The notes below the pieces were generated by a model, which saw nothing but the letters and a program-made list of their open reading frames with translations, was not told where the DNA came from and searched no databases. Of a DNA stretch of 64,000 nucleotides, positions 16,657-47,525 are shown in pieces. The position numbers were made by a program, and so were the translations under genes. The DNA is from Tepidanaerobacter acetatoxydans Re1 (GTDB lineage Bacteria; Bacillota; Thermosediminibacteria; Thermosediminibacterales; Tepidanaerobacteraceae): contig NC_019954.2 in NCBI RefSeq assembly GCF_000328765.2, positions 376,501-440,500 on the forward strand. Direction: 5' to 3'. The first letter of the stretch is position 1. Each line of letters begins with the position of its first letter.

Positions 16657-16689
16657 TAACTGAAATCAATAAAATCTAAGCTCTCAATC

Positions 16690-16884
16690 TGAGCGCTTAA
16701 TTCTTTCAGTTAGAAAGAAGCGGGGGAACCAATATTTTGGGGTGAATCCCCTTCGATTAAAGAATAATGATTCGTTCTTAATCAAAGGGGTAGGGTTAGA
16801 CTCTTCAATCCGAACCCGACAGCTAACCTCGCAAGCGTGGCAAGAGGAGGTTGATAGTATTGAGTGCTATTAAAAGTAACTCAG
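16690..16884 (+). promoter_or_regulatory. c-di-AMP riboswitch (ydaO/yuaA type)
   Basis: The hallmark conserved blocks occur in order: AGCGGGGGAACC, TTGGGGTGAATCC, GTAGGG and CCGAACCCGACAGCTAACC (16811-16829), followed by CGCAAGCG and AAGAGG. P1 pairs GCGCTT (16693-16698) with AAGCGT (16833-16838). An extra hairpin occupies the variable arm (about 16758-16787). A terminator follows at 16885. Riboswitches of this class usually switch genes off when c-di-AMP is high and control potassium or osmolyte transport and wall hydrolases; here the controlled genes are an opine-dehydrogenase-like and a B12-mutase-like gene. Confidence 0.93.
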
Positions 16885-23429: not shown

Positions 23430-24210
23430 GTCCGGCATGTTTACCAAGCCGATGGGTTGAAAGAAACCCTATCGCCTAACCAGCAGAAAGATAACCCGTA
23501 AGCAAGGGCATCACTGGCTAACGGTGGTGTCTGAAGGAAGTTGAAGGGGGAATTTGGACGGATGGATTCAAATTCAGGCAGGCAAACTTAACCGGAGAAG
23601 CCCGGCATCATCCTGCATAAAGGTAAGTCCAAACGAGTGGAGACACAAGGGCGGGAAGAAGTGGTGTGGGGTGACCGTGGAAGCAAACGCCCGCTTGGAA
23701 TACCCACCGAAAAGATCGGGTAGTCCAACAAGCCCTTCTTAACATTCTGCAACCAATCTTTGATCCCGACTTTCATCCATCAAGCTATGGGTACAGGCCG
23801 GGACGCTCCTGCCATCAGGCGGTAGCCAAAGCAGAAATGTTCATGAACAAATACGGTCTAAGGCACGTGGTAGGCATGAATCTATCCAAATGCTTTGATC
23901 GACTGGACCATGAGCTAATCCTCAAAAGAGTTAACCGAAGGATCAGTGATGGCAGCATCCTAAAACTAATGAAGAAATTTCTCACCGAAGGGGTTATAGG
24001 GGCTCGTTTGAGAAAATATCCATGACTACATGGAGAAACTCAGCTAGTCCACTAATAAGCATGGCCTTACCGAATGCGTGATTTGATGAACTTAGACTAA
24101 TAAATCTGGAGAAATATAAAGTCGGCATTTTGCATAACTACAGAGAGTAGTTACTGAGATTTATCAGGAGCCGTATACGAGGCCCGTACGTACGGTTCTG
24201 TGAGAAGGAT
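23430..24210 (+). mobile_element. degenerate group II intron
   Basis: Three marks support a group II intron: the domain I-like block around 23455-23560 (GGGCATCACTGGCTAACGGTGGTGTCTGAAGG region), a broken LtrA-type reverse transcriptase, and domain V at 24168-24208 (GAGCCGTATACG...CGTACGGTTCTGTGAG). The distance from RT fragment to domain V is far too short, so about two thirds of the maturase gene is deleted. Boundaries are approximate. The 23310-23430 flank holds no gene. Confidence 0.8.
23679..24025 (+). pseudogene. group II intron reverse transcriptase/maturase fragment
   Basis: Frame 1 reads KRPLGIPT then runs into a stop; a frameshift near 23712 restores DRVVQQALLNILQPIFDP, SSYGYRPGRSCHQAVAKAE and LSKCFDRLDHELIL, all LtrA-family RT blocks. 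The catalytic Asp position of the D-x-D-like block now reads GMNLSKCFD. The frame ends at 24025 before the YADD box, so the protein is truncated, frameshifted and inactive. Confidence 0.85.
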
Positions 24211-24240
24211 AAAGCCGAAGCAAATTACTTCGGCTTTACC
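24209..24240 (+). terminator. hairpin terminator after the intron remnant
   Basis: Stem ATAAAGCCGAAG/CTTCGGCTTTA (24209-24220 with 24228-24238), followed by CCTTACTC; the T-run is weak. Bases 24241-24416 hold no gene apart from a -10-like CATATAAT near 24376. Confidence 0.55.
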
Positions 24241-24416
24241 TTACTCGATAAATGGGCAACCGCATCTTGCAGTGCCGATTCATATGTTATAACACAATTT
24301 ATATAAAAGTAAATACTCGAAGCGTCCTTGACGTAATCAATGGCTGGATTCATTTGTAATTTTATGGGGAAATATCATATAATGAAACTGAAAATTAGTG
24401 GAGGAGGTAATATCGA

Positions 24417-42391: not shown

Positions 42392-42446
42392 AAAAAGTGA
42401 GCGTCTCAAAACTATTTAAAAAATAGTTTTGAGACGCTCACTTTTT
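42392..42446. terminator. bidirectional terminator, EamA and liv operon
   Basis: A perfect 26-bp stem (42392-42417 with 42421-42446), flanked by A/T runs on both sides so that it serves both the plus-strand transporter gene and the minus-strand liv operon. The distal end touches the livF stop. Confidence 0.93.
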
Positions 42447-43150
42447 TATTCTCCAAGATAGGCTTTTTTTACTTCTTCATTTTTTAAAAGATTTTCTGCA
42501 GTATCTTGTAGTACTATTTTACCTGTTTCTATGACGAAACCTTTATTAGCTATGGATAAAGCCATTCTGGCATTTTGTTCTACTAATAGGATAGTGGTTC
42601 CTTCTTTGTTTATTTCTGTTATTATATCGAATATATTTGCTACGATTTTAGGTGCAAGTCCCATGGAAGGTTCATCCAAAAGCAGCAATTTTGGTTTGGC
42701 CATTAATGCACGGCCTATGGCCAGCATCTGCTGCTCACCGCCGGAAAGTGTGCCGGCAATTTGCTTTTTACGATTTTTAAGAATAGGAAAAAGCGTAAAA
42801 ACTTCTTCAAGATAATTTTTTACTTCCTGTCGGTTTTTATTAAGGTAAGCACCTAACTGAAGATTTTCCAGTACGGTCATCCTGGGGAAAACTCTACGCC
42901 CTTCGGGAACCATGGCTATACCTGCTTCTACTATATCCGAAGTTGCTTTGCCCGTTATATCCTTATTTTGAAAATAAACCTTACCTGAAGTAGGAGATAT
43001 AAGGCCACAGATGGTTTTTAATGTAGTCGTCTTACCGGCTCCATTAGCCCCTATGATTGTAACGATTTCTCCTTGCTTTACCTCGATAGATATTCCTTTT
43101 AATGCTTGAATGTTACCATAATGTGTTACAATATCATCTAGCTTTAGCAT
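42446..43150 (-). CDS. livF: branched-chain amino acid ABC transporter ATP-binding protein LivF
   Basis: 234 residues. Walker A GANGAGKTTTLK, signature LSGGEQQMLAIGRAL, Walker B LLLLDEPSMGLAP, and the LivF-type MVPEGRRVFPRMTVLENL. One of two ATPases driving import. Overlaps livG by 7 bases. Last gene of the operon. Confidence 0.95.
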   Translation of the reverse strand: MLKLDDIVTHYGNIQALKGISIEVKQGEIVTIIGANGAGKTTTLKTICGLISPTSGKVYFQNKDITGKATSDIVEAGIAMVPEGRRVFPRMTVLENLQLGAYLNKNRQEVKNYLEEVFTLFPILKNRKKQIAGTLSGGEQQMLAIGRALMAKPKLLLLDEPSMGLAPKIVANIFDIITEINKEGTTILLVEQNARMALSIANKGFVIETGKIVLQDTAENLLKNEEVKKAYLGE

Positions 43151-43926
43151 GCACGGCCCTCCTTGAGGGAACTTTCCCCAAGATAAGCTTTTATAACCTT
43201 TTCATCATTTTTTATCTCGTCAGGAGGTCCATCGGCTATTTTCTTACCATAGTCAAGCACCATAATTCGCTTAGAAATACCCATGACCAATTTCATATCG
43301 TGCTCTATTAAAAGCACTGTTTTACCCTTGTCATTAAGTTTTTCAATAAGCTCTATGAGTTCGTTGGTTTCCTGAGGATTCATACCTGCAGCCGGCTCGT
43401 CAAGTAAAATAAGTTCCGGGTCTGTAGCTAAAGCCCTTGCCATTTCCAGACGTCTTTGCTTGCCGTATGGAAGGTTTTTGGCCTTTTCATTGTGCAGTGC
43501 TTCAAGACCGACAAACTTGAGAACATCCATAGCCTTTTCCTTAACGAGTGCCTCTTCTTTCTTGGCTGACGGGGTTTTAAATATAGCGCCAAAAACGCCT
43601 GTCTTAGTGCGGCAGTGCTGTCCTATTATAACATTATCGAGGACACTCATTTCACCGAACAACCTTATGTTTTGAAAGGTTCGAGCAATGCCCATTTTTG
43701 TAATTTCATAAGGCTTAAGATTTTTAATCTCTTTTTTTCTAAAGTATATTTTACCTTCTGTAGGTGAGTATACTCCGGTTAAGAGATTAAAGAGAGTAGT
43801 TTTGCCGGCACCATTGGGACCGATAACACTTAAAACCTCTCCCGTATTTATTTTAATGTCAACTGAGTTTAATGCTGAAAGACCTCCGAAAACCATAGTA
43901 AGATTATTACCCTCTAATAGTTCCAT
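43144..43926 (-). CDS. livG: branched-chain amino acid ABC transporter ATP-binding protein LivG
   Basis: 260 residues. Walker A GPNGAGKTTLFNLL, the LivG hallmark GIARTFQNIRLFGEMSVLDN, signature LPYGKQRRLEMARAL and Walker B LILLDEPAAGMNPQE. The ATG lies behind AAAGGAGGTC; 3 bases separate it from livM. Confidence 0.95.
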   Translation of the reverse strand: MELLEGNNLTMVFGGLSALNSVDIKINTGEVLSVIGPNGAGKTTLFNLLTGVYSPTEGKIYFRKKEIKNLKPYEITKMGIARTFQNIRLFGEMSVLDNVIIGQHCRTKTGVFGAIFKTPSAKKEEALVKEKAMDVLKFVGLEALHNEKAKNLPYGKQRRLEMARALATDPELILLDEPAAGMNPQETNELIELIEKLNDKGKTVLLIEHDMKLVMGISKRIMVLDYGKKIADGPPDEIKNDEKVIKAYLGESSLKEGRAC

Positions 43927-43929
43927 TGA

Positions 43930-44793
43930 TTATTGACCTCCTTTCTCGAGCGAGTTTTTGTATTCTTTTTTATTTGAAGATGGTGCACTTATTATCCCTT
44001 CAGGTTTTACAATCATCATTATAATAAGCAGCAAACCATAAAAGACCATACGATATTGAGCGATTACCGGTGATATTGATCGTAAAAGCTCAGGCAGCAC
44101 AGTTATTATACATGCGCCTAAAACAGCACCATAGGTATTACCCATTCCGCCCAAAACTACCATACACAGTATTTCAATCGACTTCATAAATCCGAAGTCT
44201 TTCGGATTTATGTACCGGAATAAGAAAGCGTATAGCCCTCCTGCCAATCCGGCATAAAATGCACCTATAATAAATGCGAGAATTTTAAACTGAGTAGTAT
44301 TTATTCCCATTGCTTCGGCCGCCAATTCATCTTCGCGGATTGCAATAAAAGATTTCCCTACACGAGAATTCATTATTCGATTTAGAGAAAAAATGACCAA
44401 AAACAGTGCTACTGCTGCTATATATATATTTGTAACCTTTGGGATACCTCGAAGACCCATGGGACCGCCTGTAATTTTAAGGTTTAAGAGAATATTTTTC
44501 ATAATTTCGCCAAAGCCGAGAGTGGCGATAGCAAGATAATCGCCTTTTAATCTTAATGTAGGCACTCCAATGATGAATCCAAAAAAAGCTGCTACAGAAG
44601 CACCTAAAACGATGGAGATTAAAAAAGGTAAATGCAGCTTTAACGTAAACAAGGTTGCAGCATATGCTCCTATGCCCATAAATGTTGCATGACCAAGAGA
44701 AAGCTGACCGGTATATCCCGTTATTAAATTAAGGCTTACAGCTAGTATAGAATTTATCATAATAACTGTCAATATTTGAAGATAGTAATTCAA
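43930..44793 (-). CDS. livM: branched-chain amino acid ABC transporter permease LivM
   Basis: 287 residues, eight or nine membrane segments. LITGYTGQLSLGHATFMGIGAYAA (core GQLSLGHATFMGIG), DYLAIATLGFGEI and GGMGNTYGAVLGA are LivM signatures. TTG 44793 is the start, behind AGGTGAAGC. Pairs with LivH. Confidence 0.94.
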   Translation of the reverse strand: MNYYLQILTVIMINSILAVSLNLITGYTGQLSLGHATFMGIGAYAATLFTLKLHLPFLISIVLGASVAAFFGFIIGVPTLRLKGDYLAIATLGFGEIMKNILLNLKITGGPMGLRGIPKVTNIYIAAVALFLVIFSLNRIMNSRVGKSFIAIREDELAAEAMGINTTQFKILAFIIGAFYAGLAGGLYAFLFRYINPKDFGFMKSIEILCMVVLGGMGNTYGAVLGACIITVLPELLRSISPVIAQYRMVFYGLLLIIMMIVKPEGIISAPSSNKKEYKNSLEKGGQ

Positions 44794-44804: not shown

Positions 44805-45674
44805 CTACACTTTCTCTTGTACACTACGGCCCAAAAGCCCGGTAGGTTTAAGTAATAGAATGAATATCAAAACTGCAAAAGCAATAGCATCTTTATATCG
44901 TGACATATAAACCGCTCCAACCATTTCGACAAGTCCGAGAATTAAACCACCAAGCATTGCACCCGGAATACTGCCAATTCCCCCTAGTACAGCTGCTACA
45001 AATCCCTTTAAACCGGGGAAGAATCCCATCATTGGATCAACTGAATCAAAATAAACTCCGACAAGTACTCCTGCGGCCCCACCTAATGCCGAACCTATGG
45101 CAAAAGTAAAGGTAATAACATGATCGATCTTTATTCCCATTAACTGAGCAGCTTCTTTGTCTTGAGCAGTAGCCCTCATAGCCTGACCAAGTTTAGTTTT
45201 TTGTATCAAAAAGTGCAATCCTACCATAAGAATAATAGATACAAACAAAATTAAAAGCTGTAATGTTGAAATACGAAATCCTCCGATATTCAAAGTTGTT
45301 ATATTAAGACCGGAAGGAAATGCCCTGGCTTGTGGGCCTGCTATCATCAAGACGGCATTTTGCAAAAAGATAGAAACTCCTATTGCACTAATCAGCGGAG
45401 CTATTCGATTAGCTTTCCTTAACGGTTTATATGCGGCTTTTTCAATAATAATGCCTAATATACATGATCCTATCATACTAATAAGAAGTGCTACAAAAAA
45501 AGGCAGCTTATAAACCGAAACCATTGTAAGGCCTATAAAGGCTCCAATCATATATATTTCGCTGTGTGCGAAGTTAATAAGTTCCAAAATTCCATATACC
45601 ATTGTATAACCGAGAGCTATTAATGAATATGTGCTGCCAAGTGTTAGACCATTTATTATTTGTTCGAAAAACAT
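44805..45674 (-). CDS. livH: branched-chain amino acid ABC transporter permease LivH
   Basis: 289 residues, about eight membrane segments. FEQIINGLTLGSTYSLIALG at the N terminus, MVYGILELINFAHSEIYMIG and GLKGFVAAVLGGIGSIPGA are the typical LivH patches. Start ATG 45674 behind AAAGGAATTG. Lies 87 bases after livJ. Confidence 0.94.
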   Translation of the reverse strand: MFFEQIINGLTLGSTYSLIALGYTMVYGILELINFAHSEIYMIGAFIGLTMVSVYKLPFFVALLISMIGSCILGIIIEKAAYKPLRKANRIAPLISAIGVSIFLQNAVLMIAGPQARAFPSGLNITTLNIGGFRISTLQLLILFVSIILMVGLHFLIQKTKLGQAMRATAQDKEAAQLMGIKIDHVITFTFAIGSALGGAAGVLVGVYFDSVDPMMGFFPGLKGFVAAVLGGIGSIPGAMLGGLILGLVEMVGAVYMSRYKDAIAFAVLIFILLLKPTGLLGRSVQEKV

Positions 45675-45761: not shown

Positions 45762-46931
45762 TTAACGAAGCTTGGTAAATTTCCCATCTTCTACTTTTAA
45801 TATAATTATATCTTTTATTGCATCTCCAACATCTGTAAAAGATGTATTTCCAGTGATACCTGGGAAATCCTTAGTTTTTGCCATTTCCTGTTGAAGGGCT
45901 TCTCCGCCTTTGCCATCAGTGTTTTTAATAGCAGTTAGCAGTATCATTGTTGCGTCATATGCTTGGGCCGCAAACATATCAGGTTCACTGTTGAATTTCT
46001 CTTTATATACCTTAACAAAATTCTGTGTGTTTTCAGAAGGATCATCAGTAAAGAATCCGGCTGTAAAAACTGCACCTTCCACGGCATCACCGCCTAATTC
46101 AAGTAATACCGGGGAATAAAAACCGTCTGCGCCGAGAATTTGAACATTAAGACCCTGGTCTTTTGCCTGTTGGGCTATCTTGGCAGCTTCGGTATAATAA
46201 CCTGCGATGTATAAAGCATCAGGATTTGTTCCTTTAATCTTAGTGAGCTGAGCCCTGAAGTCTTTCTCGCCATCATTATAGGTTTCTATGGCTGTTATTC
46301 CTGCAAGTTCTTTAGCTTTTGCCTCAAAAGCTTCCTTGAGGGAAAGACCATAATCATTGTTTGTAAACATTATGGCAAATTTCTTAAGTCCCAATTCTTT
46401 AACGGCGTATTCAGCTAATTGTATAGCTTGAACTTCATCTGACAGGCAGTTTCTGAAAATATAATCACCAATTTCCGGAACTCCGGCTGCTGTTGATGAA
46501 GATGAAATCATAACAACTTTAGCATCATTGGCTATCGGACCGGCAGTGAGCGTTTCCGAGCTTATTACGCCTCCGACAATGGCTACTACCTTATCCTGCT
46601 CTATGAGTTTTGAAGCAGCATTAGCAGCTTCGGTTTGTTCGCCGCGTGTGTCTTCCGATATTAGCTTTATAGGCTTACCGTTGATTCCACCGTTTTGGTT
46701 AAACTCTTCCACAGCTATCTCTACACCGTTTTTAGTACTTAGACCATAAGTAGCAATATTTCCGGTAAGAGGACCTATAGTACCAATTTTAATTGTTTCA
46801 TCAGCTTTTGCTGGTTGTGATGTATCAGGACTTTTTTCCGACTGATTTTGGCTACAGCCGGATAAAAGTGCTGCTGTCAACATAATTATAAAAAGTATGG
46901 TTAGAAACCTTGAGTGTTTAGACATAAGCAT
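45762..46931 (-). CDS. livJ: branched-chain amino acid ABC transporter substrate-binding lipoprotein
   Basis: 389 residues. Lipoprotein signal with lipobox LLSGC (Cys about 26), then a type I periplasmic-binding fold: IKIGTIGPLTGNIATYG, GGINGKPIKLISEDTRGE and VVAIVGGVISSETLTAGP. ATG 46931 follows GCAGGAGGT by 6 bases; nine extra upstream codons would swallow the ribosome site. First gene of the operon; its 5' leader holds a ykkC-family riboswitch. Homologues also bind other amino acids, amides or urea, so branched-chain specificity is an inference. Confidence 0.92.
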   Translation of the reverse strand: MLMSKHSRFLTILFIIMLTAALLSGCSQNQSEKSPDTSQPAKADETIKIGTIGPLTGNIATYGLSTKNGVEIAVEEFNQNGGINGKPIKLISEDTRGEQTEAANAASKLIEQDKVVAIVGGVISSETLTAGPIANDAKVVMISSSSTAAGVPEIGDYIFRNCLSDEVQAIQLAEYAVKELGLKKFAIMFTNNDYGLSLKEAFEAKAKELAGITAIETYNDGEKDFRAQLTKIKGTNPDALYIAGYYTEAAKIAQQAKDQGLNVQILGADGFYSPVLLELGGDAVEGAVFTAGFFTDDPSENTQNFVKVYKEKFNSEPDMFAAQAYDATMILLTAIKNTDGKGGEALQQEMAKTKDFPGITGNTSFTDVGDAIKDIIILKVEDGKFTKLR

Positions 46932-47082
46932 AAAATAACCTCCTGCGAGTATTTTCAAAATGATATTAATGATATTAATAAAAATAAGCTTTCTTCAGAC
47001 AAGTAACTCAATTCGTAAATATTTAAACTACTTTAGACTTCAACCCTACTATATTATACACCACCCCCAAAGTTCCAAGTAT

Positions 47083-47218
47083 AAAAAAATAGCAGATTAC
47101 TCATGACAAAGCCATAAGTGGAACCTGCCGCTAGAGTCTTTTATACTCACGGTGTACTAGAAAAAACTAGCTGTACCGCTTGGACCAGACGCAATATAGC
47201 CGGAACCCTAGGTACACT
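47083..47218 (-). promoter_or_regulatory. ykkC-family riboswitch (ppGpp/PRPP-like subtype 2) with terminator
   Basis: On the minus strand, GTGTACCTAGGGTTCCGGC (from 47217), then CTGGTCCAAGCGGTAC, a CTAG/CTAG hairpin, TACACCG, GAGTATAAAAGACTC and AGCGGCAGGTT (ending 47122) follow the ykkC consensus in order. CTGGTCCAAG and the 3' GGCAGG extension match subtype 2 (ppGpp or PRPP) rather than the guanidine subtype (CCGAGAG). The 3' strand overlaps a terminator: GCAGGTTCCACTTATGG pairs with GTCATGAGTAATCTGC, then seven U residues (47089-47083). Upstream on the same strand TATAAAAT near 47248 could be the -10. Controls the liv operon. Confidence 0.82.
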
Positions 47219-47458
47219 CCCACATCCTATATATAATAAAACATTAGATTTTATATCATATTATAATCTAAATCAATCAAAATGTCACTAACAAAAATGA
47301 TAATTTATAAATATATTCGCATAAAACATGCATATTTTTCTTCTATAAGTGGAAAAATACAAAAGTGGATTTTATTTAAATAACGCGAAAAATAAAGAAA
47401 AAAGCAGCATAATCGGCAAAAATACAATTTATTCAACTAACAGCGAGAATAAGAGAAA

Positions 47459-47498: not shown

Positions 47499-47525
47499 TT
47501 AGCACTCATCACGATGGAGTGCTAA
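47499..47525 (+). promoter_or_regulatory. CIRCE operator (HrcA site)
   Basis: TTAGCACTC-N9-GAGTGCTAA, a perfect match to CIRCE consensus, 104 bases before groES and directly after the -10. HrcA repressor binding there gives heat-shock control; hrcA is not in the window. Confidence 0.97.

Follow-up and report, generated by a model that had tools for sequence, protein, structure and literature searches.

The livKHMGF operon of Tepidanaerobacter acetatoxydans Re1 is directly preceded by a ykkC-family aptamer on the minus strand, at approximately 47116-47230 of the window (the whole stretch of 64,000 nt analysed, to which all coordinates refer). We infer that this element is a ppGpp-sensing riboswitch (ykkC subtype 2a) that switches the operon on by transcription antitermination; both the ligand and the direction of switching are deduced, and the reading is very probably correct. 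The motif, the signature bases of the subtype, the helices, an overlapping terminator, the operon, a RelA/SpoT gene and conservation across the family are all found.

The leader lies between groES/groEL on the plus strand and a minus-strand operon of five genes, which domain matches identify as the liv operon claimed in the preliminary description:

45762-46931, minus strand: livK, branched-chain amino acid binding protein (Peripla_BP_6, E = 1.6e-72)
44805-45674, minus strand: livH permease (BPD_transp_2, E = 1.4e-47)
43930-44793, minus strand: livM permease (BPD_transp_2, E = 7e-51)
43144-43926, minus strand: livG ATPase (ABC_tran and BCA_ABC_TP_C)
42446-43150, minus strand: livF ATPase (ABC_tran, E = 2.5e-36)

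The start of livK is the ATG at 46931, located behind AGGAGG; the TTG called by the tool (46958) lies upstream of it. The genome encodes a RelA/SpoT protein (867 bits). It also encodes CodY, which may provide the operon with a second input. A CodY site in the leader was considered, but the best candidate picked out by eye departs from the consensus at about five positions. Within the interval between the terminator and livK a stretch AUAUUUACGAAUUGAGUU..UUGUCUGAA (about 46990-47025, minus strand) is conserved in around half of the family leaders, and is vaguely CodY-box-like. Upstream of groES/groEL, and divergent from the liv leader, lies a CIRCE-type inverted repeat TTAGCACTC-N9-GAGTGCTAA (47499-47525, plus strand).

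Using the curated Rfam thresholds no riboswitch is reported at the liv leader. A relaxed scan (cmscan with an E-value threshold) returns RF00442 (guanidine-I) alone at this position, and no ppGpp or PRPP family. The match (47127-47222, minus strand) spans positions 1-107 of the model with a score of 46 bits (E = 4e-7), and does not reach the gathering score of 63. It is the sole RF00442 match in the whole genome; the liv operon has the only ykkC aptamer, while there are 18 matches to T-box leaders. Elsewhere in the window are matches to the c-di-AMP (ydaO/yuaA) riboswitch (16684-16851, plus strand, 100.6 bits) and to Group II intron domain V/VI (24166-24249, plus strand, 44.5 bits).

The leader has the P1-P2-P3 fold of the ykkC superfamily with its CUAGGG, GGNCC(A/G)AG, ACACC and AUAAAAG blocks, and the conserved blocks CCUAGGGUUCC, GGUCCAAGCGG, UACACCGUG, AUAAAAG and GGCAGG are all present. 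An additional helix, P0, is formed between the 5′ and 3′ tails, as in ppGpp and PRPP aptamers. Together the aptamer and terminator occupy 47083-47230 on the minus strand. The element had previously been placed at 47083-47218; the motif and the minus-strand leader are real, but that span misses the 5′ strand of P0 (47218-47223). The components of the aptamer, in which R1 and R2 are the ppGpp and PRPP models described below, are:

47116-47230, minus strand: aptamer of ykkC subtype 2a (ppGpp-type) as assigned from model scores (RF00442 46 bits; R1 106.4 bits, R2 81.3 bits)
47218-47223, minus strand: 5′ strand of P0, GUGGGA, pairing with UUCCAC at 47118-47123 (six pairs in every liv leader)
47211-47215, minus strand: 5′ strand of P1, GUACC, with its partner GGUAC at 47173-47177 (pairing in liv leaders)
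47178, minus strand: C, equivalent to position 49 (from the sequence and RF00442 alignment; rule from PMC6031431)
47157-47170, minus strand: P2 hairpin, CUAG...CUAG (two pairs changed on both sides in relatives)
47154, minus strand: C, equivalent to position 75, putative partner of the ppGpp guanine (placed from ACACC; role from PMC6031431)
47134-47148, minus strand: P3 hairpin GAGUAUAAAAGACUC, the loop being the conserved AUAAAAG (A-U changed to G-C on both sides in 4/12 relatives)
47132, minus strand: A, equivalent to position 96

The numbering of positions was carried over by alignment and not taken from the T. mathranii sequence; it fits the published neighbours C75-A76-C77 and A103-G104-G105.

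The helices are well conserved. Over 12 liv leaders 99.1% of cells in P0, P1, P2 and P3 are paired, and two-sided changes in the aptamer helices occur in 11 cells, compared with 3.8 in shuffles and above the value in any of 500 shuffles. P0 is near-invariant among the liv leaders. In the wider ppGpp set G-C, C-G and A-U alternate at one site of this helix, and true partners form 4.9 pairs compared with a mean of 3.5 and a maximum of 4.13 in 300 shuffles. The minimum-energy fold of the leader is no more stable than those of shuffled sequences (z = -0.89), and stability was therefore left out of the evidence.

Since Rfam provided no ppGpp or PRPP family, subtype models were made from aptamers grouped by downstream gene. 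The aptamers were collected with a shared-core pattern (119 stretches), and with RF00442 within the window's own family. The purine group comprises aptamers preceding purL, purB, purC and others plus ten purine permeases, and the amino-acid group those preceding gltB, ilvB, ilvD, ilvE, ilvN, paaK and an ABC ATPase, with gene labels taken from cluster representatives and not from gene-by-gene scans. Covariance models R1 (ppGpp, with the liv members left out) and R2 (PRPP) were based upon 28 sequences each; both sets are defined by gene context, and the label 'ppGpp' is taken from what has been published on such contexts.

For the aptamer of the window the score is 106.4 bits under R1 and 81.3 bits under R2. 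In the comparison of covariance models proposed in the preliminary description, ppGpp is placed above PRPP, and the one guanidine-I model used (RF00442, 46 bits) does not score best. R1 outscores R2 in all 12 liv leaders of the family, with a margin of about 20 to 30 bits; in the held-out purine-linked aptamers R2 is always ahead, with a margin of about 13 to 40 bits. Most of the held-out amino-acid-linked aptamers score better with R1. The exceptions are L016 (-7 bits) and L050 (-1 bit), which precede branched-chain amino acid genes yet score slightly higher with the PRPP model, so the contrast between the models is imperfect. The two models give about equal scores for a further set of subtype 2 relatives (L069, L075, L093 and L006, Atribacteria) that are followed by genes for a GAF-domain-like protein, a glutamate-dehydrogenase-like protein and a BrnQ-type transporter.

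The two kinds of aptamer are also distinguished by individual bases. According to a crystallographic study, G96 of the PRPP aptamer is paired with C75; ppGpp aptamers have another base or none in place of G96, and the ligand's own guanine fills the site. The single substitution G96A converts PRPP recognition to ppGpp recognition, with a shift in specificity of about 40,000-fold (PMC6031431). At the equivalent of position 96, G is found in 64/64 of the purine-linked aptamers, whereas the liv-linked ones, including that of the window (A at 47132), have A in 14/14; within the set examined, one base position thus separates the two in every case. The segment on the 3′ side of P3 reads CCC-N-G-N-CGG-NN-AGG, with small variations, in the purine-linked aptamers, and C(C/U)C-(C/U)-A-G-CGG-(C/U)-AGG in the 14 liv-linked ones. 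In the window the segment joining P3 to P0 is one base shorter than in the purine-linked aptamers. At the junction of P2 and P3, the C at 47154 within UACACC occupies the place expected for a ppGpp riboswitch.

Position 49 is A in guanidine-I aptamers and a pyrimidine in subtype 2 (PMC6031431), and the C at 47178 within CCAAGCGG conforms to the latter. CCAAG and the 3′ GGCAGG had been put forward as subtype 2 features. Both are present, but CCAAG is not decisive and was dropped as a marker of the subtype, as CCGAG is found in relatives linked to liv, gltB (glutamate synthase) and T-box leaders; the diagnostic base is the C that follows AAG or GAG. In eight loci with ppGpp-type aptamers (L132, L135, L138, L139, L140, L142, L187 and L188) CCAAG is replaced by GACCGAG, and a T-box-like leader follows. 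Taken together, the contrast between R1 and R2, A at position 96, C at position 49 and the gene context support the assignment of the liv leader as a ppGpp-type (subtype 2a) aptamer, in agreement with the type originally suggested from sequence.

Downstream, the aptamer runs into an intrinsic terminator, and a promoter-like sequence is found 30 bases upstream:

47260-47288, minus strand: candidate sigma-70-type promoter GTGACA-17-TATAAT (11/12 in a consensus scan; with a threshold of 9/12, chance alone would give 2.7 such sites)
47091-47129, minus strand: terminator hairpin GGCAGGUU..AAUCUGCU, including the P0 3′ strand UUCCAC at 47118-47123 (-18.4 kcal/mol alone)
47083-47089, minus strand: terminator U-tract of seven U (from the sequence)

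The GGCAGG and UUCCAC (47123-47118) sequences are common to the aptamer and the terminator hairpin, bearing out the overlap that had been described. Since both GGCAGG and the 3′ strand of P0 are shared, closure of the aptamer and formation of the terminator are mutually exclusive. The minus-strand terminator was missed by a simple terminator scan, probably owing to the internal loop of the hairpin. The hairpin is retained in relatives, and across 12 leaders 90% of its cells are paired; its covariation is weak, slightly above that of shuffles.

Competition of the terminator with P0 is the arrangement expected for the expression platform of a 2a riboswitch, and suggests how the switch would operate. 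Transcription would start near 47253. In the absence of ppGpp the P0 3′ strand and GGCAGG would be taken into the terminator, and with the seven U the polymerase would halt before livK. On shortage of amino acids, uncharged tRNA would activate RelA/SpoT and the level of ppGpp would rise. The guanine of ppGpp would then pair with C 47154, in the place filled by G96 in PRPP aptamers. The bound ligand would hold P0 so that the terminator could not form, and livKHMGF would be transcribed (an ON switch). Ligand binding should permit read-through, because the 3′ strand of P0 is part of the terminator. For a different ppGpp riboswitch, cotranscriptional probing has tracked the same mechanism (PMC10687018).

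The aptamer is located upstream of the livK orthologue in 12 of the 13 genomes of the family, and all of these relatives are also below the RF00442 cut-off. The exception is a genome of the same genus (G012), where the region upstream of livK (L201) has no conserved aptamer block left. This genome retains livK (87% identity), preceded by the same promoter hexamers and spacing. It also retains a hairpin GCGACAGAUU..AAUCUGUCGC (-19.8 kcal/mol) with compensating changes, while its terminator U-tract is broken, and reads AUUUCUAU. Loss of the aptamer together with the broken U-tract is what antitermination predicts, because a working terminator lacking its sensor would silence the operon. G012 represents a natural loss of the switch, and the family provides a natural test of the mechanism, with 12 genomes having aptamer and terminator and one lacking both the aptamer and U-tract. 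Neither the conservation at livK across the family nor the loss in G012 was found in the literature searched. In some relatives a further ppGpp-type aptamer precedes glutamate synthase, and in some a ppGpp-type aptamer is in tandem with a putative T-box leader, according to our own reading of GAGAGCCGGG..GGUGAAAGCCGGU.

Just 3′ of the terminator all 13 genomes have a G-rich block resembling a Shine-Dalgarno sequence, GGGGGUGG in the window (47060-47068, minus strand) and GGAGGUGRUG in others. A short reading frame with a high content of Ile, Leu and Val comes after the block in several genomes. The block could be an mRNA-stabilising site, belong to a leader peptide, or neither. A leader peptide sensing branched-chain amino acids was considered and is kept only as a lead, as neither start codons nor frames are conserved over the 13 genomes. 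A leader of two layers, in which this block and (in several genomes) the reading frame would add control of translation or mRNA stability after ppGpp-dependent read-through, is unlikely.

The alternative that the leader has a decayed ppGpp-like aptamer that no longer switches, leaving the terminator as a constant attenuator, is extremely improbable. The lineage does lose the aptamer, as one genome of the genus has lost it entirely; against this, the conserved blocks of the window are all intact, its score is among the best of the liv leaders, and its relatives keep the helices with two-sided changes. There is next to no likelihood of a guanidine-I riboswitch. RF00442 is the sole matching Rfam family and serves as the model for this contrast, and it has in common with the leader P1, P2 and P3 as well as the CUAGGGUUCCG, UGGUCC and AUAAAAG blocks. 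However, the score lies under the curated cut-off in the window and its relatives alike, the base after AAG is C and not A, P0 is present where guanidine-I aptamers have none, and the downstream genes include no guanidine carboxylase or exporter.

A PRPP riboswitch (subtype 2b) controlling a transporter is very unlikely, although it shares the fold, P0 and the C at position 49, and its model matches the entire aptamer. Nor does the presence of a transporter argue against it as had been supposed, since ten purine-type aptamers precede one permease cluster (representative Xan_ur_permease). It is disfavoured by a score 25 bits below that of the ppGpp model, by A in place of the G found at position 96 in every purine-linked aptamer, by the joint between P3 and P0 that is one base shorter than in purine-linked aptamers, and by downstream genes of amino-acid transport, with no purine genes. 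A nucleoside-diphosphate riboswitch (subtype 2c) has the same extra conserved 5′ and 3′ segments as 2a and 2b (PMC5912903), and is likewise highly improbable here. Such riboswitches precede NUDIX or HAD hydrolases (PMC7266159) and not liv genes, and the window retains the guanine-pairing C, the base whose change to U makes ppGpp aptamers prefer ligands with adenine (PMC6031431).

The ppGpp riboswitch (2a) is thus the known system most probably represented here. Like other members, the liv leader matches over the whole aptamer a model derived from ilv, glt, paaK and natA-type contexts, has no G at position 96, forms P0, and precedes branched-chain amino acid transport genes, a context in which ppGpp riboswitches have already been described (PMC6031431). 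Its terminator overlaps the aptamer as in the example from Clostridiales bacterium oral taxon 876, in which the U-tract is able to pair with purines that precede the stem. No defining feature is different. The aptamer of the window is single, unlike the tandem with a T-box found in several relatives of the same order (L132, L135, L139, L140, L187 and L188). The liv leader adds a well-supported member to a class already known, in a gene context also known, and comparison with the subtypes provides a firm call for a riboswitch that Rfam gives as a sub-threshold match to guanidine-I.
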